From the NCBI RefSeq assembly GCF_000300455.3, contig NZ_CP007215.2, forward strand, positions 1,984,001 to 2,048,000: 64,000 nucleotides of DNA. The letters run 5' to 3'. The translations under genes and the position numbers were made by a program. The notes under the pieces are model-generated. The model was not told the DNA's origin. It was given only the letters and a program-made list of their open reading frames with translations, and did no database searches. Source of the DNA: Kosakonia sacchari SP1. Its GTDB lineage: Bacteria > Pseudomonadota > Gammaproteobacteria > Enterobacterales > Enterobacteriaceae. Numbering within the stretch: position 1 is the stretch's first letter; every line of letters begins with the position of its first letter. Of the stretch, positions 53,404 through 63,917 are shown in pieces.

Positions 53404-56400
53404 ATGAATATGTTGCTTTCATTGCTGACCAACCGCATTTTGTGGGGTTTCCTTGGCGTGACGGGGCTGGCCGCAGTTATCTGGATGATTGGCCCGCTGC
53501 TCTCCGTCGTGGACTCCCGCCCGCTTGAGTCTGAGCAAAACCGCATGATAACCATTGCGGTGATGTACCTGATTTGGGTTCACAGCCACATTGTGCCGCG
53601 TCTCTACAACGCCTGGCTCAACCGTAAGCTGATGGACAACCTGAAAAGCGAAGAAGCGAAAGATCCAGTTGAGCGCAAACGCCTCAATAACGAAGATCAG
53701 GTGCTGAACGAGCGTTTCGAAGAAGCCGCGCAGATGTTGAAAAAAGCGCACTTCAACCAGCCCGGTCAACGCGGGCAGTGGGCGCAGCGCTTCAGTACCC
53801 AGTATCTGTATCAACTGCCGTGGTATGTGATTATCGGCGCGCCGGGTTCCGGTAAAACCACTGCGCTGGTGAACTCCGGCCTGCAATTCCCGCTGGCCGA
53901 TCGCTTCGGTAAAACCGCGCTGCGCGGTATTGGCGGTACGCGTAACTGTGACTGGTGGTTTACTAACGAGGCTGTACTGCTCGATACCGCCGGGCGTTAC
54001 ACCACGCAGGAGAGCGAGCAGGTTCAGGATGCGAGCGAATGGCTGAAATTTCTTGGCCTGCTGCAAAAGTATCGCCGTCGCCAGCCGATCAACGGCGTGA
54101 TTGTGACGGTCAGCATTGCCGATCTGCTCACCCAGTCAGCCGAGGCATCGCGCGAACAGGCGCTCAACCTGCGCCAGCGTTTGACCGAGTTACATGAACA
54201 ACTGGGGATCCGTTTCCCGGTGTATGTGCTGGTCACCAAAGCGGACTTGTTGAAAGGTTTTCGCGCGTACTTTGCCGGGTTTGATAAAGCGCAGCGCGAT
54301 CAAATCTGGGGTTTCACCTTCCCGTGGGAAAAAGCCAAACTGGCGGATTTTGACCTGCAGGGCAGTTTTATTCAGGAATTCGCGCTGCTGCAACAGCGCC
54401 TGGACGCGGCTCTGCCGGATACACTGCTGCGTGAAAGCGATGCGCAAGCTCGTGCGGAATGTTTTCTGTTCCCGCAGGAGTTCGCCGCGCTGCGCCCGTT
54501 GCTGGCAGACTATCTGAACACCATTTTTGCACGCTCCAACTTTGAAACCGAGTTCTCGCCGCGCGGCATCTATTTTGCCAGCGGTACGCAAGAAGGCCTG
54601 CCGTTTGACCGCGTGATGGGCGAGCTTAACCGCGCGCTGTCGCTGCCGCAGGGCAAATCTGGTGACAACTGGGATTCGGTCAGCAAAGAGGCACCGGTGC
54701 CGGGCGGGAAAGGGCAGAGCTTCTTTATCAAGCATCTGCTGCAAAACGTTATCTTCCAGGAAGCCGGTATCGCCGGGCAAAATCGCTGGTGGGAACTGCG
54801 CAGCCGGGCGGTGATCTGGTCCGGTTATGCGGCGCTGCTGGCGCTGCTGATTATTATCAGCGCTTTGTGGTTTACCAGCTACGGCAACAACCGTGATTAT
54901 CTGGATGAAGTACAGGCCAAAGTACCGGCGCTTGACCAGCAAATCAAAGCGCTGCGTAACCGCCAACAGGGCGATCTCTTTGCCTTGCTGCCGCTGCTTA
55001 ATGGCCTTTCTGCGCTGCCGGAAAGCGAGAAGTTTGACGTCAATAACCCGCCGATCACCCGCCGCATGGGGCTGTATCGCGGTAACGATGTGGCGGATGC
55101 CTCGCAAACCCTGTACCAGAAAGCGCTGCAGCAGATGCTGCTGCCGGAAGTGGCGATGCGCATCACCACCTGGTTGCGTAACGACAATGGCAGCGATGTG
55201 GAATACAGCTATGAGGCGCTGAAAGCCTATCAAATGCTGTATCAGCCGAAGCATTACGACGGTAAGTTCCTGCACTCGTGGGTGATGCTCAATCTGCAAC
55301 GTAACCTGCCGCAGAACGTCACCAAAGCGCAGTTAAGCCAGCTTGAGTGGCACCTGACGCAACTGCTGGAGCCGCAAATTCAGTCCTCACCGTATGCGAA
55401 AGACGAGGCGCTGATTAGCCGCGAACAGGCATTAATCAACCAGCAACCGCTCTCCACCCGCGTTTACGGGCGGCTGAAACGCCTGCTGGAGCGCGATGAA
55501 AATCTGAAGCAGGTCTCACTGGCGTCGCTTGGCGGACCGCAGAGTGAACTGGTTTTTTCCCGCAAAAGCGGCAAGCCGGTCGGTGAAGGGCTGCCGGGGT
55601 TGTATACCCCGGATGGTTACTGGAACAGTTTCAATGCGCAAATCGCGCCGGTCACCGCCTCGCTGCATGAAGATGATGTCTGGGTGCTCGGTTCCACCAC
55701 GCAAGCGGAAGACAAACAGCAAACCGATAACGCGGTACGCCAGCTGTATGCGCGTGATTTTATCGCCATCTGGGATAACTTCTTAAGCGACATTCAGTTG
55801 AATAACAGCGCGGATCTGAACCAGCGCATCAACACCGCGCGTCTGCTTTCCGGGAATAACTCGCCGCTGCGCCGCCTGGTTATCAGCCTCAGCCAGCAGT
55901 TGAAACTCAGCCGCGATGAAGTGGGCGATAGCAAAGAGAAAGCGCCGGAGAGCAGTAACCGTGGCACGCAGATGCTCGAAACGCTGTTCAGCAACCATGA
56001 CGGCGCGTCAGCCACGGCAAACGCTGCCGCCAGCCAGACGCCGGAACAGCGTGTCACCGAGCATTTCGCGCCAATCATTGAACTGGCGCAGCCGCTGGAA
56101 AAGGGCGGCAAGACCATTGTGTTTGATGACTTTCTTAAACAGGTTGATGAGCTTTATCGTTACCTGACCGCCGTGCAGGATGCCGCCAACAGCGGAATGC
56201 CACCGCCGGGTGGTGAAGCGATTAGCCGTTTGCAGGCCAGCGCCGGACGTTTACCCGGCGGGCTGCAAACCATGTTCAGCAACATGGCGGTTGGCGCGAG
56301 CAGTGATACTCAGCGCCGGGATATGGAAAACGTGCGCAAGCGCATCAGCGTGGAAGTGGGCAGCTTTTGCCGCCAGGCGATTGCCGGACGTTACCCGTTA

Positions 56401-57015
56401 GTGCGTTCTGCCAGCAGCGAAGTTACGCCGGACGATCTGGCGCGCATGTTTGCCCCTGGTACCGGCCTGATGGATGTCTTTTTTCGCGACAACCTGACCA
56501 ACAAAGTCGATACCACCCAGGCGACATGGCGTTTTATGCCGGGCATCGATGGCAAAACGTTGCCAGGCAGCGAAGGCGTGCTGGTGCCGTTTCAGCAGGC
56601 GCAATCGATTCGTGACGCGTTCTTTGCCAACGGCAGCGCAACACCGTCGTTTCGCACCACGGTGCGTACGGTGCGCATGGATAACACCATCCTGAATATG
56701 ACGCTGGATGTGGACGGGCAAATCCTTCGCTACAGCCACGGCCCACAGGCGGTGCAAATCGTTAGCTGGCCGGGTTCCGGCGGCACCAACCAGGTGCGGA
56801 TGCAATTAGGGCTGGCCAACGGCACAACCGCTACGCTTGTGACCAATGGCGCCTGGGCGCTGAACCGCTTTTTCGATAAAGCGCGCGTCAGCCCCGGCAG
56901 CAGCAGCCTGAGCCGCCAGGCGACATTCACGGTTGACGGACATCAGGTGACGCTGGAATTCGCGCCCAACAGCATCCGCAACCCGTTCCAGCTTCCACGT
57001 TTCGCATGTCCTTGA
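53404..57015 (+). CDS. tssM: T6SS membrane complex protein TssM (IcmF family)
   Basis: 1203 residues. Membrane segments near 10-30, 48-66 and about 463-487. An intact Walker A motif GAPGSGKT at 145-152 in the cytoplasmic NTPase-like domain, with LLDTAGRYTTQ as the Walker B/G3 region. A long periplasmic part (490-1203) ends in the TssJ-binding beta domain (TFTVDGHQVTLEFAPNSIRNPF). TssM spans the envelope and opens for the needle. A long antisense frame (54190-55299) is a shadow of its codon bias. Confidence 0.97.
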   Translation: MNMLLSLLTNRILWGFLGVTGLAAVIWMIGPLLSVVDSRPLESEQNRMITIAVMYLIWVHSHIVPRLYNAWLNRKLMDNLKSEEAKDPVERKRLNNEDQVLNERFEEAAQMLKKAHFNQPGQRGQWAQRFSTQYLYQLPWYVIIGAPGSGKTTALVNSGLQFPLADRFGKTALRGIGGTRNCDWWFTNEAVLLDTAGRYTTQESEQVQDASEWLKFLGLLQKYRRRQPINGVIVTVSIADLLTQSAEASREQALNLRQRLTELHEQLGIRFPVYVLVTKADLLKGFRAYFAGFDKAQRDQIWGFTFPWEKAKLADFDLQGSFIQEFALLQQRLDAALPDTLLRESDAQARAECFLFPQEFAALRPLLADYLNTIFARSNFETEFSPRGIYFASGTQEGLPFDRVMGELNRALSLPQGKSGDNWDSVSKEAPVPGGKGQSFFIKHLLQNVIFQEAGIAGQNRWWELRSRAVIWSGYAALLALLIIISALWFTSYGNNRDYLDEVQAKVPALDQQIKALRNRQQGDLFALLPLLNGLSALPESEKFDVNNPPITRRMGLYRGNDVADASQTLYQKALQQMLLPEVAMRITTWLRNDNGSDVEYSYEALKAYQMLYQPKHYDGKFLHSWVMLNLQRNLPQNVTKAQLSQLEWHLTQLLEPQIQSSPYAKDEALISREQALINQQPLSTRVYGRLKRLLERDENLKQVSLASLGGPQSELVFSRKSGKPVGEGLPGLYTPDGYWNSFNAQIAPVTASLHEDDVWVLGSTTQAEDKQQTDNAVRQLYARDFIAIWDNFLSDIQLNNSADLNQRINTARLLSGNNSPLRRLVISLSQQLKLSRDEVGDSKEKAPESSNRGTQMLETLFSNHDGASATANAAASQTPEQRVTEHFAPIIELAQPLEKGGKTIVFDDFLKQVDELYRYLTAVQDAANSGMPPPGGEAISRLQASAGRLPGGLQTMFSNMAVGASSDTQRRDMENVRKRISVEVGSFCRQAIAGRYPLVRSASSEVTPDDLARMFAPGTGLMDVFFRDNLTNKVDTTQATWRFMPGIDGKTLPGSEGVLVPFQQAQSIRDAFFANGSATPSFRTTVRTVRMDNTILNMTLDVDGQILRYSHGPQAVQIVSWPGSGGTNQVRMQLGLANGTTATLVTNGAWALNRFFDKARVSPGSSSLSRQATFTVDGHQVTLEFAPNSIRNPFQLPRFACP

Positions 57016-57033
57016 ACTGCAAAGGAACGCCTA

Positions 57034-57744
57034 ATGACTACGACTTCTGCAATTAGCTGGTATGGCAAACTGCCCAGTGCGGGCGATTTTTTACAACGCC
57101 GCTTTCCTGATGCGCTTCAGCGCCAGTGGTCCCACTGGTTTCAGGTGGGGTTGATGAACTGGCAGAAAGAAGAACAGCGTACAAGTGACCGGCAGTTCAG
57201 CAATGCGCCGATCTGGAATTTCGTTGTGCCGCCAATGCTCGGCGGGCAACAAGTGCAAATGGGCTGTCTGCTGCCAGGGCGCGACAGCGTTGGTCGTCAG
57301 TATCCGCTGTGTGCGTTGATGGCGATTAACCCGCTGGAATGGTCGCCACGCCATTTAGCGAAAGCGGGCGACTGGTATGAACAACTCGGGCGCACCATGC
57401 TGCATGCCGTGCGCAATGGGTTTTCACCCGAACAGCTCGACCAGGCGCTGCTCTCCATTCCACCCGTGCAACTGGTGGAGCCGGAAACGCGCTCGGAAAT
57501 TCTGGATGTGATTGGTTATGACGGCGACGGCGAATCCACCATCGGCTGGCGACAGGCCGCCGAATGTTTTGATCCGCTGCGCCAGATAAGTTTCTGGTGG
57601 ACCAACCGCAGCGATGGCTACCCGCTTTACACCCATGTGCACAGCGGCAATTTTACCGGCCAGTTATTCACGCTGTTGTTTGAGCCGGCGGGTGGCGCAA
57701 GACCTGGTCGCCACGGCCTCTACCCACCGATGTTTGAAGAATAA
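57034..57744 (+). CDS. tagF: T6SS-associated regulator TagF
   Basis: 236 residues. The N-terminal signature AISWYGKLPSAGDFLQRRFP and later WNFVVPPMLGGQQVQMGCLLPGRDSVGRQYPL define the TagF family (DUF2094). In Pseudomonas, TagF represses the H1-T6SS after translation, acting through Fha1 and independently of the PpkA kinase pathway. No kinase, phosphatase or Fha gene is in the window, though they could lie downstream. It is 18 bases after tssM. Confidence 0.92.
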   Translation: MTTTSAISWYGKLPSAGDFLQRRFPDALQRQWSHWFQVGLMNWQKEEQRTSDRQFSNAPIWNFVVPPMLGGQQVQMGCLLPGRDSVGRQYPLCALMAINPLEWSPRHLAKAGDWYEQLGRTMLHAVRNGFSPEQLDQALLSIPPVQLVEPETRSEILDVIGYDGDGESTIGWRQAAECFDPLRQISFWWTNRSDGYPLYTHVHSGNFTGQLFTLLFEPAGGARPGRHGLYPPMFEE

Positions 57745-57755
57745 GCAGGTTGCGG

Positions 57756-58769
57756 ATGACTATAGAATCGTTACTCGCTCCGGTCAGCCCGGAGCAACCG
57801 TGCGGTGAGAATCTGGAGTATGACGCCGATTTCCAGGCGATGGAGCAGGCGAGCCTCGGCAAGGCCGAGCAGCAGTTTGGCAGCACCATTATTCCCGCCG
57901 AACCGGCAGACTGGACGCGGGTGGAAAAATTGGCCACCGGGCTGCTGGCGCGTACCAAAGATATCCGCGTGATGATGGCGTTAACCCATGCGTGGACTCG
58001 ACGTCGCGGGCTGGAAGGCTATGCTGATGGTTTAATGCTGTTAGGTCAGGCGCTGGCGCTCTACTGGGATCAACTCTGGCCTTCGCTGACCGACGGTGGT
58101 GAATTCGACCCGTTTTACCGCATTAATGCGCTGGCGGGGTTAAGCGATAAATCTTCGCTGACCACCACGCTGCGCCAGGCGACGCTGCTGCGCAGCAACG
58201 GCGATGAGCTAAACGTGCGCGACGCGCAGGCGTTGCTTGACGGCAGCAAAACGGAATGTGCAGGCTACCCTGGCGGCCGGGTGCGTCTGATTGATGAACT
58301 CACGCGCGGCGGACAGCCTGGCATTGAGGCTATCTGCCAAATCGAAGGGCGTCTGCAAACGATCCGTACATGGTTGCTCGAACAACTGGGCGAAAGCGGG
58401 GTGCCGGAAATGGAACAGTTACTCAAAACGGTCGGGTTAATTGCTGGTGTCAGCCGCGCTAACCGCACGGAAGAGCAACAGGCGACAGAACAAACGGCAC
58501 CTGCGGATAGCGCGCCGCAACCAGTCGTCGCAGCGCCGCTGGCGGCGCATACCGACTGGCGAACCGCGCAGGTTACCACGCGCGCCGATGCGCAACTGAT
58601 GCTGGAAAAAGTGAAGCAATACTTCACCCAGCACGAGCCGAGCCACCCCGCGCCGTTGATGATTGACCGCGTGCAGCGGCTAATCGAACTGGACTTTATG
58701 GAGATTATTCGCGATCTGGCGCCCGATGGCGTGAATCAACTGCAAAACATCTTTGGGCGTCAGGACTGA
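57756..58769 (+). CDS. tssA: T6SS sheath-capping protein TssA
   Basis: 337 residues from the ATG at 57756; an in-frame TTG at 57750 precedes it and is unlikely. An ImpA-type N-terminal domain (PVSPEQPCGENLEYDADFQ, MALTHAWTRRRGLEGYADGLML) is followed by a linker rich in Ala, Gln and Pro (about 235-260) and a C-terminal helical domain (VQRLIELDFMEIIRDLAPDGVNQL). The short type of TssA primes tail tube and sheath growth. A 74-base gap follows before tssB. Confidence 0.93.
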   Translation: MTIESLLAPVSPEQPCGENLEYDADFQAMEQASLGKAEQQFGSTIIPAEPADWTRVEKLATGLLARTKDIRVMMALTHAWTRRRGLEGYADGLMLLGQALALYWDQLWPSLTDGGEFDPFYRINALAGLSDKSSLTTTLRQATLLRSNGDELNVRDAQALLDGSKTECAGYPGGRVRLIDELTRGGQPGIEAICQIEGRLQTIRTWLLEQLGESGVPEMEQLLKTVGLIAGVSRANRTEEQQATEQTAPADSAPQPVVAAPLAAHTDWRTAQVTTRADAQLMLEKVKQYFTQHEPSHPAPLMIDRVQRLIELDFMEIIRDLAPDGVNQLQNIFGRQD

Positions 58770-58843
58770 CGCGTACCGAGTTATGACGGCAGGCGCGTTG
58801 CCGGTCGTCAAACCTTCACCGCGCATATTCGATGGAGAACATC

Positions 58844-59368
58844 ATGGCAATAAGTAACAGTGGTCAGAAATTTATCGCCCGCAACCGTGCCCCCCGCGTA
58901 CAGATTGAGTACGACGTGGAAGTGTACGGCGCGGAGCGCAAAATCCAGCTTCCGTTTGTGATGGGCGTAATGGCGGATCTGGTAGGGAAACCGGTGGAGA
59001 ACTTACCCTCTATTGAGGATCGTAAATTCCTCGAAATCGACGTCGACAACTTCGACGAACGCATGAAAGCGCTGAAACCGCGCGTGGCGTTCAACGTCGA
59101 CAACACGCTGACCGGCGAAGGCCGTCTGAACGTCGATTTAACTTTCGACAGCATGGATGACTTCCTGCCAGACGCGGTGGCACGCAAAGTTGAGCCGCTG
59201 AACAAACTGCTGGAAGCGCGCACGCAGCTTTCCAACCTGCTGACCTATATGGACGGTAAAAACGGTGCGGAAGAGCTGATTGCCAAAGTGTTGCAGGATC
59301 CAACCCTGCTGAAATCGCTCAGCCAGTTACCGAACAGTGAAGACAGTGCGCAAGGTAAAGAGGAGTAA
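58844..59368 (+). CDS. tssB: T6SS contractile sheath small subunit TssB
   Basis: 174 residues from the ATG at 58844 (MAISNSGQKFIARNR); an ATG four codons earlier overlaps the ribosome site GGAGAAC. Family blocks: RAPRVQIEYDVEVYGAERK, LPFVMGVMADLVGKP, and a C-terminal helix (EPLNKLLEARTQLSNLLTYM) that locks with TssC. 3 bases separate it from tssC. Confidence 0.96.
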   Translation: MAISNSGQKFIARNRAPRVQIEYDVEVYGAERKIQLPFVMGVMADLVGKPVENLPSIEDRKFLEIDVDNFDERMKALKPRVAFNVDNTLTGEGRLNVDLTFDSMDDFLPDAVARKVEPLNKLLEARTQLSNLLTYMDGKNGAEELIAKVLQDPTLLKSLSQLPNSEDSAQGKEE

Positions 59369-59371
59369 ACC

Positions 59372-60874
59372 ATGAGCAACCCTTCTCAACAGCAAGAACT
59401 GCAGCAGGGCGCACAGGCCTTCAGCCAGGATGAGTTCAGCGCGCTGCTCAGCAAAGAGTTCCGTCCGAAAACGGACCAGGCGCGTTCAGCGGTAGAAAGT
59501 GCGGTGAAAACGCTGGCGCAACAGGCTCTGGAAAACACCGTCACGTTCTCCAGCGATACCTACCGCACCATTCAGAACCTGATTGCCGGAATTGATGAAA
59601 AGCTGTCGCAGCAGATTAACCAGATAATCCACCACGAAGATTTCCAGAAACTGGAAAGTGCGTGGCGCGGTTTGAGCCATCTGGTGAACAACACCGAAAC
59701 CGACGAGATGCTGAAAATCCGCTTTATGAGCATCTCCAAGCAGGAACTGGGCCGCAACCTGAAACGCTTTAAAGGCGTGGGCTGGGACCAGAGCCCGCTG
59801 TTCAAAAAAATCTATGAAGAAGAGTATGGCCAGTTTGGTGGCGAACCGTTTGGCTGCCTGGTTGGCGATTACTACTTCGACCACAGCCCGCAGGATGTCG
59901 AACTGCTGGGCGAAATGGCGCGCATCGGCGCGGCGGCGCACTGCCCGTTCATTACCGGTACTGCGCCAAGCGTGATGCAGATGGAGTCCTGGCAGGAGCT
60001 GGCGAACCCGCGCGATCTGACGAAAATCTTCCAGAACACGGAATACGCCGCCTGGCGTTCACTGCGTGAATCTGAAGATGCCCGTTACCTTGGCCTGGTG
60101 ATGCCGCGCTTCCTGTCGCGTCTACCGTACGGTATTCGCACCAACCCGGTTGACAGCTTCGATTTCGAAGAAGAGACCGATGGCGCGAACCACAACAACT
60201 ACTCGTGGGCGAACGCCGCGTACGCGATGGCAACGAACATCAACCGTTCGTTCAAAGAGTACGGCTGGTGTACGTCGATTCGCGGTGTGGAATCCGGCGG
60301 TGCGGTAGAAAACCTGCCCTGCCATACCTTCCCGAGCGATGACGGCGGCGTGGACATGAAGTGCCCGACCGAGATCGCCATCAGCGACCGTCGTGAAGCA
60401 GAACTGGCGAAAAACGGCTTTATGCCGCTTATCCACCGTAAAAACTCCGACTTCGCCGCGTTTATTGGCGCGCAGTCGCTGCAAAAACCGATGGAGTACC
60501 ACGACGCCGACGCGACCGCTAACGCCCGTCTGGCTTCGCGTCTGCCGTATCTGTTCGCCTGCTGCCGTTTTGCGCATTACCTGAAGTGCATTGTGCGCGA
60601 CAAAATCGGCTCCTTCCGCGAGCGTGACGAAATGGAACGCTGGCTGAACGATTGGGTGATGAACTACGTCGACGGTGACCCGGCGAACTCCTCGCAGGAA
60701 ACCAAAGCGCGTAAACCGCTGGCTGCGGCAGAAGTGCAGGTGCAGGAAATCGAAGATAACCCTGGCTACTACGCGGCGAAATTCTTCCTGCGTCCGCACT
60801 ACCAGCTGGAAGGTCTGACGGTTTCTCTGCGTCTGGTATCCAAACTGCCGTCGCTGAAAACCAAAGAAGCGTAA
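59372..60874 (+). CDS. tssC: T6SS contractile sheath large subunit TssC
   Basis: 500 residues. Well-conserved family sequence: FQKLESAWRGLSHLVNNTET, FGCLVGDYYFDHSPQDVELL, GAAAHCPFITGTAP and PRFLSRLPYG near the middle. TssB and TssC build the sheath that contracts to drive the Hcp tube out. Start ATG at 59372 with AAGAGGAG upstream. A 259-codon antisense frame is not a gene. Confidence 0.97.
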   Translation: MSNPSQQQELQQGAQAFSQDEFSALLSKEFRPKTDQARSAVESAVKTLAQQALENTVTFSSDTYRTIQNLIAGIDEKLSQQINQIIHHEDFQKLESAWRGLSHLVNNTETDEMLKIRFMSISKQELGRNLKRFKGVGWDQSPLFKKIYEEEYGQFGGEPFGCLVGDYYFDHSPQDVELLGEMARIGAAAHCPFITGTAPSVMQMESWQELANPRDLTKIFQNTEYAAWRSLRESEDARYLGLVMPRFLSRLPYGIRTNPVDSFDFEEETDGANHNNYSWANAAYAMATNINRSFKEYGWCTSIRGVESGGAVENLPCHTFPSDDGGVDMKCPTEIAISDRREAELAKNGFMPLIHRKNSDFAAFIGAQSLQKPMEYHDADATANARLASRLPYLFACCRFAHYLKCIVRDKIGSFRERDEMERWLNDWVMNYVDGDPANSSQETKARKPLAAAEVQVQEIEDNPGYYAAKFFLRPHYQLEGLTVSLRLVSKLPSLKTKEA

Positions 60875-60913
60875 GCCAGACAGGCCGGCTTCATTAACCA
60901 CAAGGATGTGACG

Positions 60914-61351
60914 ATGCGACAGTGCATTATGTTAGCCGGTCTGTTGTTCTGTTCAGCGTTGAGCTGGGCAGAACAGGATTACACACCGCGTGCACAGGCG
61001 TTGCCGCAGGACGATACGGCTAATTTTTTGCGCGACCCGGCGTTGCTCACCAGCCAGGATGTGAATATGTCCGGCGAGCGCTTTTTCAACGCGTGGACAT
61101 CTAAAAGCAACGAGCGCGAGCGCATTAAAGCCGATCTCTATTTATTAGGCGTGCTGGATACCACGGAAGGGACAGTCTGGTGCAGTTACCGGCGGTTCAA
61201 ATCCATCACGCTGCATGAAATTGTGTATAGCTACTTTCGCAGCTTGCCGCCTGAGAGGCTGAAACAGGCGCGCGCGTCGAGCTTAATTATCGACGCGATG
61301 ACGCAGCATCATGGTGGCTGTGAAAAAAGCACACCATCGCGCAATAAATAA
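60914..61351 (+). CDS. Exported Rap1a/Tai-like protein, candidate T6SS immunity protein
   Basis: 145 residues from the ATG at 60914, with AAGGA 8 bases upstream; a GTG two codons earlier is too close. Signal peptide 1-20 (cleavage after SWA). The mature part has FFNAWTSKSNERERIKADLYLLGVLDTTEGTVWC..., then a helix and GGCEKS at the end; the layout (helix, GVLD, a W/C pair, PPERLKQARASSLI, closing Cys) resembles the Rap1a/Tai family, periplasmic inhibitors of T6SS amidase toxins. No Tae4-type amidase is adjacent in the window. It may be an orphan immunity gene or an apparatus accessory. Confidence 0.65.
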   Translation: MRQCIMLAGLLFCSALSWAEQDYTPRAQALPQDDTANFLRDPALLTSQDVNMSGERFFNAWTSKSNERERIKADLYLLGVLDTTEGTVWCSYRRFKSITLHEIVYSYFRSLPPERLKQARASSLIIDAMTQHHGGCEKSTPSRNK

Positions 61352-61600: not shown

Positions 61601-62083
61601 ATGGCTATTGATATGTTTCTGAAGGTCGATGGAGTTACGGGTGAATCTAAAGACTCTAACCACACCGGCTGGACTGATATCACATCTTTTTCCTGGGGTG
61701 CTTCACAACCTGGAAACATGAGCGTTGGCGGTGGCGGCGGTGCCGGTAAAGTCAATTTTAATGACCTGCATGTTAACGCACTCATTGATAAATCCACGAC
61801 GGCTATCCTGAAACATTGCGCCAGCGGCAAACACTTGACCAAAGTTGAGCTGTCTGTCTGCAAAGCAGGCGGCCAGCAGGTTGAGTATGCACGCATCACC
61901 CTGGAAGATGTGCTGGTAACTTCCGTTCAGTACACCGGTGCTGACAACGGCGACACCGTAGGTGTGACCTATGCATTCCAGGCTGCGAAAGTGAAACAGC
62001 AGTACTGGGAGCAGTCCTCTTCTGGTGGTAAAGGTGCTGAAACCAGCGCTGGCTGGAACATCAAAGAAAACAAAGAAGCGTAA
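61601..62083 (+). CDS. hcp: T6SS inner tube protein Hcp
   Basis: 160 residues, the normal Hcp length. Clear Hcp family sequence: AIDMFLKVDGVTGESKDSNHTGWTDITSFSWG at the start (seen as MFLKVDGVTGESKD and TDITSFSWGASQPG), and the end EYARITLEDVLVTSVQYTG. It forms hexameric rings that stack into the tube and can carry effectors in the lumen. AACGAAGAGTAAATATT precedes the ATG. A strong terminator follows, giving a separate, likely abundant transcript. Confidence 0.97.
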   Translation: MAIDMFLKVDGVTGESKDSNHTGWTDITSFSWGASQPGNMSVGGGGGAGKVNFNDLHVNALIDKSTTAILKHCASGKHLTKVELSVCKAGGQQVEYARITLEDVLVTSVQYTGADNGDTVGVTYAFQAAKVKQQYWEQSSSGGKGAETSAGWNIKENKEA

Positions 62084-62125: not shown

Positions 62126-62285
62126 CCTAATCCTTATTTTATTTTTTAATGGCTGTCTCTTTTTCATATTGAGTGAGTGACGTTGTCCCCAACAGAATAA
62201 TTAGCTACTCAAACGCAGCCGCTTTTATGAAAGCTGTTTCTTTTGAGTGCGTATAAATATTAAAGAATATTTTGAGGATGAACGA

Positions 62286-63119
62286 ATGAGTGTTATGCGC
62301 AAGGGTGATCGTGGTACGAATGTTAAAGAGTTACAGCAACTGCTGAATAAATCGGGAGCGAAAGTCGGTGAAGATGGTATTTTCGGCTTAAAAACCGAAA
62401 TTGCCGTCAAACAATTCCAGGCGAAACAGAATTTACATGTTGATGGAATTGTCGGGCGACGCACCCTTGCTGCATTAGGTAAACCGGTCACTACCCGCGC
62501 GCCACAGCCGCCTATTTCAGGCAGCGCCGGGCGACAGGCTGTCGGAGCGATGGATATTTCCGCCAGTGGCATGACCTTTATTTTTCATCGCGAAGCCTGG
62601 GCAAACAAAAGTTGTTACCTGCACTGGCCAGGTGGCGCGAGCGGCGTGACGCTCGGGCCGGGCTACGATATGAAAGAGCGCTCTGAGCAATCTATCAAAG
62701 CGAAAATGATTGAAATCGGCATTGATGCGATAACCGCGGAAAAAATCAGTAAAGCCGCCAAATTGCACGACGACCAGGCAAGTCAGTTTGTCGCCGATAA
62801 CGCGAAACTGGTGCGTCTTACCGCCGATCAGGAGACAAATTTACTGCGTGCCACCGTTCCGCCATACGTTAACGCGGTGAGAAATGGTATTTTTGTGCCG
62901 CTCAAGCAGTATGAATTCGACGCGCTGGTCTCCTTTGCGTATAACCCCGGTGGACGGCTGAACAACGTGTTTGGTTTTATCAACCGTGGGCAGATCTCTG
63001 ACGCGATGACAGAAATTAAACGCGCGAACACCAGTAAACACAAAGTTATGAAGGGTTTGATTAATCGTCGTAATTTTGAAGTGAATCTTTTCTTAAACGG
63101 CGACTACGGGACTAATTGA
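62286..63119 (+). CDS. Peptidoglycan-binding muramidase, candidate T6SS effector
   Basis: 277 residues from the ATG at 62286 with GAGGA 8 bases upstream. No signal peptide. An N-terminal peptidoglycan-binding domain type 1 (about 3-65; GDRGTNVKELQQLLNKSG, DGIFGLKTEIAVKQFQ, VDGIVGRRTLAAL) is joined by a Pro-rich linker to a lysozyme-like domain (about 90-277). Its likely catalytic set is E103 (HREAW), T122 and D128 (SGVTLGPGYD); the T-x5-D spacing is that of pesticin and the VgrG3 lysozyme domain. Lack of a signal, plus position right after hcp, fits a toxin loaded into the T6SS and released in the target periplasm. It is 3 bases before the DUF1311 gene. Confidence 0.85.
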   Translation: MSVMRKGDRGTNVKELQQLLNKSGAKVGEDGIFGLKTEIAVKQFQAKQNLHVDGIVGRRTLAALGKPVTTRAPQPPISGSAGRQAVGAMDISASGMTFIFHREAWANKSCYLHWPGGASGVTLGPGYDMKERSEQSIKAKMIEIGIDAITAEKISKAAKLHDDQASQFVADNAKLVRLTADQETNLLRATVPPYVNAVRNGIFVPLKQYEFDALVSFAYNPGGRLNNVFGFINRGQISDAMTEIKRANTSKHKVMKGLINRRNFEVNLFLNGDYGTN

Positions 63120-63122
63120 TCA

Positions 63123-63917
63123 ATGACGACTCACACTAAACAGATCGTAGCGGCAACGCTCACTTGCCTGGCGCTACTCTCTTCGGCGGCGCAGGCTGGC
63201 AATTCACCGGTACAGGGCGAGTGGCTGGTTGAGAAAGCGTTTATTAATACCGAAACAGAACGCACCCTGAACTATCAGTTCAACGATGATCGCCTTGTCG
63301 GGCGCTTTCTGAGCGTGACGCCGCAAGGCATCAGCACTTCGCTTCCGGGCGGCTCGAATTGCCAGTCACCCGCGATGAAAGAAAGCAGCAGTACGCTGGA
63401 TGCCTGGGTCGCTGCCACGCAGTCCATCCCGGAGAAAGACGCGGCGAAAACCTATGAGCTGGGATTAGACGGGAGCGCGAAAACGCTGGTCGAAAACATT
63501 ACCTGCGCATCGGGTCACTTTGCTAACGGTGATGCGGGTAGCGGCGCCAGCCTGGCATTCGTCAATCAGCGCTTACTGCTGAACTGGACGGATGGCACCA
63601 TCCTGTTGCTCACGCCGGTGGATAAAAACAGCAAACCACAGGCATCGTTTGATTGTGCAAAAGCCGCTTCCGCACCGGAAAAAGCAATCTGCGGCGATCG
63701 CGAACTGGCGTCGCTGGATAACAGCGTTGCCCGTTCTTACCGTTCGTTCCGCAAAGAAGCGGTAAGCCTGGGTAATAAAGATCTGGAAAACAAACTGCAA
63801 TCGCAACAGAAAGCCTGGTTAAGCCAGCGCAATAGCTGCAATAGCGATGTGCAATGCCTGAAAAAATCGATGAACGATCGTCTGGAAAAGCTGGCGCACA
63901 GCCTGGATGGGGTCTGA
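63123..63917 (+). CDS. Exported DUF1311 (LprI-like) protein, candidate immunity protein
   Basis: 264 residues. Signal peptide 1-25 (cleavage after AQA). About 150 residues of unrecognised sequence with cysteines (SNCQSPAM, ITCASGHF) lead to a C-terminal DUF1311/LprI-like domain (about 175-260; FDCAKAASAPEKAICGDREL, LSQRNSCNSDVQCLKKSM) with four conserved cysteines. LprI of Mycobacterium tuberculosis, which has this domain, inhibits lysozyme. The gene begins 3 bases after the muramidase stop with no clear ribosome site of its own, suggesting coupled translation. A periplasmic inhibitor that protects against the neighbouring muramidase is the simplest reading. Confidence 0.75.
   Translation: MTTHTKQIVAATLTCLALLSSAAQAGNSPVQGEWLVEKAFINTETERTLNYQFNDDRLVGRFLSVTPQGISTSLPGGSNCQSPAMKESSSTLDAWVAATQSIPEKDAAKTYELGLDGSAKTLVENITCASGHFANGDAGSGASLAFVNQRLLLNWTDGTILLLTPVDKNSKPQASFDCAKAASAPEKAICGDRELASLDNSVARSYRSFRKEAVSLGNKDLENKLQSQQKAWLSQRNSCNSDVQCLKKSMNDRLEKLAHSLDGV

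Follow-up and report, generated by a model that had tools for sequence, protein, structure and literature searches.

The window analysed here is a 64,000-nucleotide stretch of Kosakonia sacchari SP1 DNA (contig NZ_CP007215.2, positions 1,984,001 to 2,048,000), the right-hand end of which carries part of a type VI secretion system (T6SS) core cluster. Within that cluster, between hcp and a gene which we take to encode an FHA protein, lie two adjacent genes for a putative free-standing muramidase effector (MUR) and a putative periplasmic immunity protein (LprI_1). MUR (62286..63119, + strand) encodes 277 amino acids (30.2 kDa) and was assigned from its open reading frame, Pfam and fold matches. 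Its ATG has GAGG upstream, and an alternative GTG start at 62247 would give 13 extra residues. The TGA stop codon (63117-63119) is separated by 3 bases from the ATG of LprI_1 (63123..63917, + strand, 264 amino acids), which was assigned from its open reading frame, Pfam, its pairing with MUR and hydropathy. No hydrophobic N-terminus was found in the first 42 residues of MUR (best 13-residue hydropathy 0.44). That of LprI_1 reaches 2.28, ends in AQA and is signal-like, a signal peptide call made by eye. These results agree with an earlier, sequence-only reading of the window, in which a signal-less protein with peptidoglycan-binding and lysozyme-like domains was followed 3 bases later by a secreted DUF1311 protein. 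Both genes are under purifying selection.

The PG_binding_1 domain of MUR occupies residues 9-64 (62310..62477, + strand) and scores 64.8 bits against a Pfam cut-off of 23, with support from fold matches. The remainder, from about residue 90 to 277 (62553..63116, + strand), is a pesticin/GH24-like catalytic domain according to Pfam, alignment and fold matches. The profile search proposed in the sequence-only reading was favourable for one family and not for the other: Phage_lysozyme (PF00959) matched residues 177-265 only, at 55.4 bits (cut-off 22.3), and the Pesticin profile (PF16754) covered residues 117-173 at 16.5 bits, under its cut-off of 25.8. The fold is the lysozyme fold of GH24 and resembles both GH24 lysozymes and pesticin. 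Residues E103, T122 and D128 (codons at 62592..62594, 62649..62651 and 62667..62669, all + strand) did not vary among the 12 aligned rows, in agreement with the earlier statement that they are kept. They form the E, T, D set of pesticin with its T-x5-D spacing, the pesticin residues being those given in PMC9927483. The WHxxxH motif that characterises WHIX effectors was not found in MUR. LprI_1 has two predicted domains, a beta-barrel of about residues 26-170 (63198..63632, + strand) outside the Pfam match, and a helical LprI/DUF1311 domain of about residues 171-264 (63633..63914, + strand), within which LprI/DUF1311 (PF07007) matches residues 178-241 at 22.5 bits, the cut-off being 22.

The region between TssC and the FHA gene was read in all 15 Kosakonia genomes, each of which has a T6SS of the window type. 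MUR lies inside the hcp-FHA interval in seven (G000, G001, G003, G007, G008, G011 and G012), and in all seven an LprI-type gene stands directly behind it. Five of the seven carry MUR-A, 87-100% identical to the window protein, together with LprI_1; the other two, G001 and G007, carry MUR-B (55-56% identity to the window MUR) with a different LprI. The closest MUR genes are in K. quasisacchari (99%) and K. cowanii (90%). In the remaining eight genomes the interval holds other genes or none. Comparison of the window genome (G000) with G007 gave identities of 95% for Hcp and 98% for FHA, but 56% for MUR and 25% for the next gene. The hcp-FHA interval is a swappable cargo slot, and the MUR-LprI pair is a cassette in it.

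Matches to MUR at E <= 1e-12 were obtained in 17 of 392 genomes of the family, and full-length MUR at 67% identity or more in only four (G000, G003, G012 and G099). G099 belongs to another enterobacterial genus and has a second hcp, then MUR, then LprI. Scanning the genomes of 84,980 species yielded 18 loci, with the catalytic domain in 11 (L013-L023) besides L012; LprI follows the catalytic domain in all eight non-Kosakonia loci, ie L017-L023 and the plasmid-borne Burkholderia locus L004. The free-standing format with PG_binding recurs in Noviherbaspirillum, Nevskia and a gammaproteobacterial metagenome-assembled genome, and the relatives in Gilliamella (with a long N-terminus) and Burkholderia are fused to longer proteins. 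At E <= 1e-20 the catalytic profile found three of 398 phylum genomes (G000, G739 and G045); G739 matches the whole domain and G045 only residues 86-180, in an ordinary-looking lysozyme. In G739 (L160:1-819) two similar small secreted proteins stand behind MUR in place of LprI, possibly another type of immunity. A T6SS is present in 16 of 16 MUR carrier genomes tested, against a base rate of 88 in 398. Among the weaker family hits that were read, six to nine are diverged cousins that have PG_binding and end in a pesticin-like region, three of them scoring 21.0-25.6 bits with the Pesticin profile, just below its cut-off. Two further genera (G265 and G318) have such a cousin in the hcp-FHA slot, followed in each by two single-domain LprI genes. 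Others are found away from any recognised T6SS cluster, and in several of these (L151, L152, L154, L156 and L161) the next gene is LprI-like.

Just past the window lies a second two-domain LprI gene, LprI_2 (64019-64855, L003:8019-8855; Pfam LprI 28.1 bits), followed by the FHA gene and further T6SS genes. LprI_2 shares 66% identity with the gene directly behind MUR-B and 67% with the second gene of G011, and the nearest relative changes along its length. At the start, in the first two 90-base windows, identity is highest with the second gene of G011 (84-88%). In the middle it is highest with G007_1, the MUR-B immunity gene (72-88%, compared with 52-72% for G007_2), and at the end with the genes in second position, G007_2 and G011_2 (91-96%). 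At the best break, determined over 278 informative sites, the MUR-B gene was favoured 144 to 59 on the left; on the right it was outnumbered, 4 to 71. None of 2000 shuffles reached that score. LprI_2 is a recombinant in which immunity genes of sister strains make up a mosaic of three parts, and the middle part matches the MUR-B immunity gene. The first LprI genes follow their effectors closely: over 14 pairs, MUR and first-LprI distances had a correlation of 0.963, equalled in 0 of 5000 permutations.

An intact second LprI is present in five of the seven Kosakonia MUR carriers; of the other two, G008 retains 69 codons of one and G003 lacks it altogether. An LprI_2-like gene is also kept in the slot by three of the eight Kosakonia genomes without MUR. 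Over the family, the two-domain form occurs in 15 of 392 genomes (E <= 1e-59), beside hcp and/or the FHA gene in 13 and beside VgrG in one; no T6SS gene was seen alongside the copy in G056. Eleven of these 15 genomes have no MUR match in the family search at E <= 1e-12, and the copy in G042 is split across two frames. G099 encodes a 434-amino-acid protein (L062:11247-12551) in which one LprI_2-like stretch follows another, suggestive of two barrels joined ahead of a single DUF1311. One orphan two-domain gene lies in an enterobacterial chromosome (L194:813-9244), adjoining genes which resemble those for Microviridae replication and pilot proteins. As the part that would contact MUR, the recombination in LprI_2 points to the N-terminal barrel no less than to DUF1311. 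An accumulation of orphan immunity genes has been described before (PMC7400221). A wider proposal, which we hold tentatively and at slightly under even odds, is that the two-domain LprI proteins are an allele-specific T6SS immunity family, stockpiled at the hcp-FHA slot and reshaped by recombination, with LprI_2 a working mosaic that protects, through its middle part, against MUR-B rivals and with the barrel, not the DUF1311 helices, holding much of the specificity.

The left border of the slot is hcp (61601..62083, + strand; PF05638 by Pfam), the probable carrier of MUR, at a spacing of 203 bases. Upstream T6SS core genes occupy 53404..60874 (+ strand); TssC (59372-60874) was identified by Pfam VipB, and the others we take to be TssM, TagF, TssA and TssB from sequence and gene order. 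Tae4 gives a parallel case of exchange in the TssC-hcp interval: it is found in 10 of the 15 Kosakonia genomes, in eight of these in that interval. It was not found in a search of the window genome, though a Rap1a-type immunity gene (60908..61351, + strand, by Pfam) is kept in that interval. One additional copy each of TssC and Hcp, at G000:C1:738463-743938, probably marks a second T6SS in this genome. In other genomes a recurring pair of about 340-350 and 137 amino acids occupies the slot (L054:7528-8984 in reverse-complement frame, L057, L196 and L197), possibly including a pore-forming effector as suggested for Pantoea. The slot also holds a DUF5675 protein, assigned by Pfam on the L048 copy, with a secreted partner of 223 or 234 amino acids (L048:4494-5624 and L061:8193-9420), a candidate effector-immunity pair.

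We conclude, with a probability of about 0.88, that MUR is an antibacterial muramidase delivered by the T6SS and that LprI_1 is its periplasmic immunity protein. The sequence-only reading had proposed the same, and it is now well supported because the slot is variable, the pairing is constant in the full-length family, all 16 carriers tested have a T6SS, the catalytic residues are kept and the fold is that of GH24 and pesticin. From its place next to hcp, we infer that MUR, which has no signal peptide, would be loaded with Hcp and fired into the periplasm of a rival. There it would grip the wall by PG_binding_1 and cut glycan strands with the E103/T122/D128 centre. The two-domain LprI_1 would be exported to the producer's own periplasm, and the constant pairing and matched divergence suggest that it binds and blocks MUR arriving from sister cells. 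The extra LprI genes would most likely protect strains against alleles that they do not carry, as LprI_2 may do against MUR-B. Several observations weigh on the other side. The 16 carrier genomes are not independent (seven are Kosakonia, three Gilliamella and two Noviherbaspirillum), and the distance correlation between MUR and LprI is partly species history. The Pfam score of LprI_1 is marginal. No recognised T6SS neighbour was found at the Noviherbaspirillum and Nevskia pairs in 20-kb loci searched with 11 Kosakonia probe proteins, VgrG excluded. Small secreted proteins not recognised as LprI stand behind the MUR relatives of G739 and of the prophage-like contig L150, and in the latter the MUR domain adjoins phage tail genes.

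This contig, together with the GH24 fold and the matches of MUR to phage endolysin profiles, would fit a prophage endolysin stranded in the chromosome beside an unrelated gene. However, MUR is inside the T6SS core in all seven Kosakonia carriers, and none of 837 matching phage records covers 80% of it. Of the best 80 viral-contig loci, 75 align with the 187-residue catalytic profile no earlier than residue 71 and five begin at residues 29-49; none of the 80 is more than 46% identical. The exact catalytic-signature pattern was found in one viral contig only, L150, where the domain (L150:799-1862) lacks PG_binding and has a 143-amino-acid secreted neighbour of no known family. L150 argues against a family confined to the T6SS, not against the reading for Kosakonia, and a stranded endolysin is extremely unlikely. 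A housekeeping role, in which MUR opens the producer's own wall for assembly of the machine and LprI restrains it, is highly unlikely: the gene is in the T6SS operon, its product has a wall-binding domain, and the missing signal peptide excludes simple Sec export, but the same T6SS does without MUR in eight of 15 Kosakonia genomes, the slot being otherwise filled, and the alleles are replaced in pairs between near-identical machines.

It is also very unlikely that the LprI proteins inhibit host or phage lysozymes in general and stand beside MUR by chance. LprI of M. tuberculosis does inhibit lysozyme (cited in PMC8867033 and PMC12135965), and the two-domain form is without MUR in 11 of its 15 genomes; chance, however, would not be expected to place LprI directly behind MUR in seven of seven Kosakonia and eight of eight other loci, to put the two-domain form at a T6SS locus in 14 of 15 genomes (13 at the hcp/FHA-gene interval), or to match the divergence of the two genes. 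Carriage of MUR by VgrG or PAAR in place of Hcp is a separate matter and is unlikely, though less so than the foregoing. The Burkholderia relative is a 945-residue fusion with a PAAR gene behind and the WHxxxH motif as in WHIX effectors, and the Gilliamella relatives are likewise fused to a long N-terminus. MUR, in contrast, is free-standing, has no such motif and lies directly behind hcp, and in G099 it is a second hcp that precedes it.

In plant-associated Kosakonia, the putative effector-immunity pair provides a compact, tractable wall-cutting effector together with its immunity protein. The new details are the two predicted domains of the immunity protein (beta-barrel and DUF1311) and the recombinant second copy. 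The T6SS machines that carry the two effector alleles are almost identical, and the immunity genes with them include matched, extra and recombinant ones; this natural set allows a direct test of how effector-immunity specificity changes and of defence against alleles that the strains do not make.

Pesticin is a bacteriocin with import domains. Compared with pesticin (PDB 4epf, 4aqn), MUR has PG_binding_1 in place of those domains. VgrG3cp/TsiV3cp of Vibrio cholerae E1 resembles the MUR pair in having PG-binding and pesticin-like muramidase domains and a downstream immunity gene, and its muramidase activity has been demonstrated; it differs in being a VgrG fusion (PMC9927483). The earlier statement that pesticin and VgrG3 share one Glu/Thr/Asp set needs correction, since of the three pesticin residues only T201 and D207, and not the E, are conserved in VgrG3cp (PMC9927483). 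In Salmonella Dublin, SED_RS06235/SED_RS06230 likewise combines a wall hydrolase with an LprI protein (PF07007) that is encoded behind it and bears a signal, and the module influences interbacterial competition; its effector is a LysM/transglycosylase protein, not pesticin-like, and its LprI is a single-domain protein of 146 amino acids (PMC8867033). WHIX effectors share pesticin- or lysozyme-like C-terminal domains and DUF1311/LprI neighbours with MUR (PMC12135965), which differs from them in being free-standing and without WHxxxH. The nearest precedent is in Pantoea ananatis, where a 2014 report described a protein encoded between hcp and tagH with PG_binding and an HHpred similarity to pesticin (PMC3942780). 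That account is a prediction, and the available part of it names no LprI partner. The Pantoea protein of the T6SS-1 hcp island has further features in common with MUR: it is free-standing, lies in the variable hcp-tagH region and was proposed as a bactericidal effector (PMC3942780). Given this precedent, and given that two more genera have diverged cousins in the corresponding slot, a free-standing protein is not as notable as the sequence-only reading had supposed.
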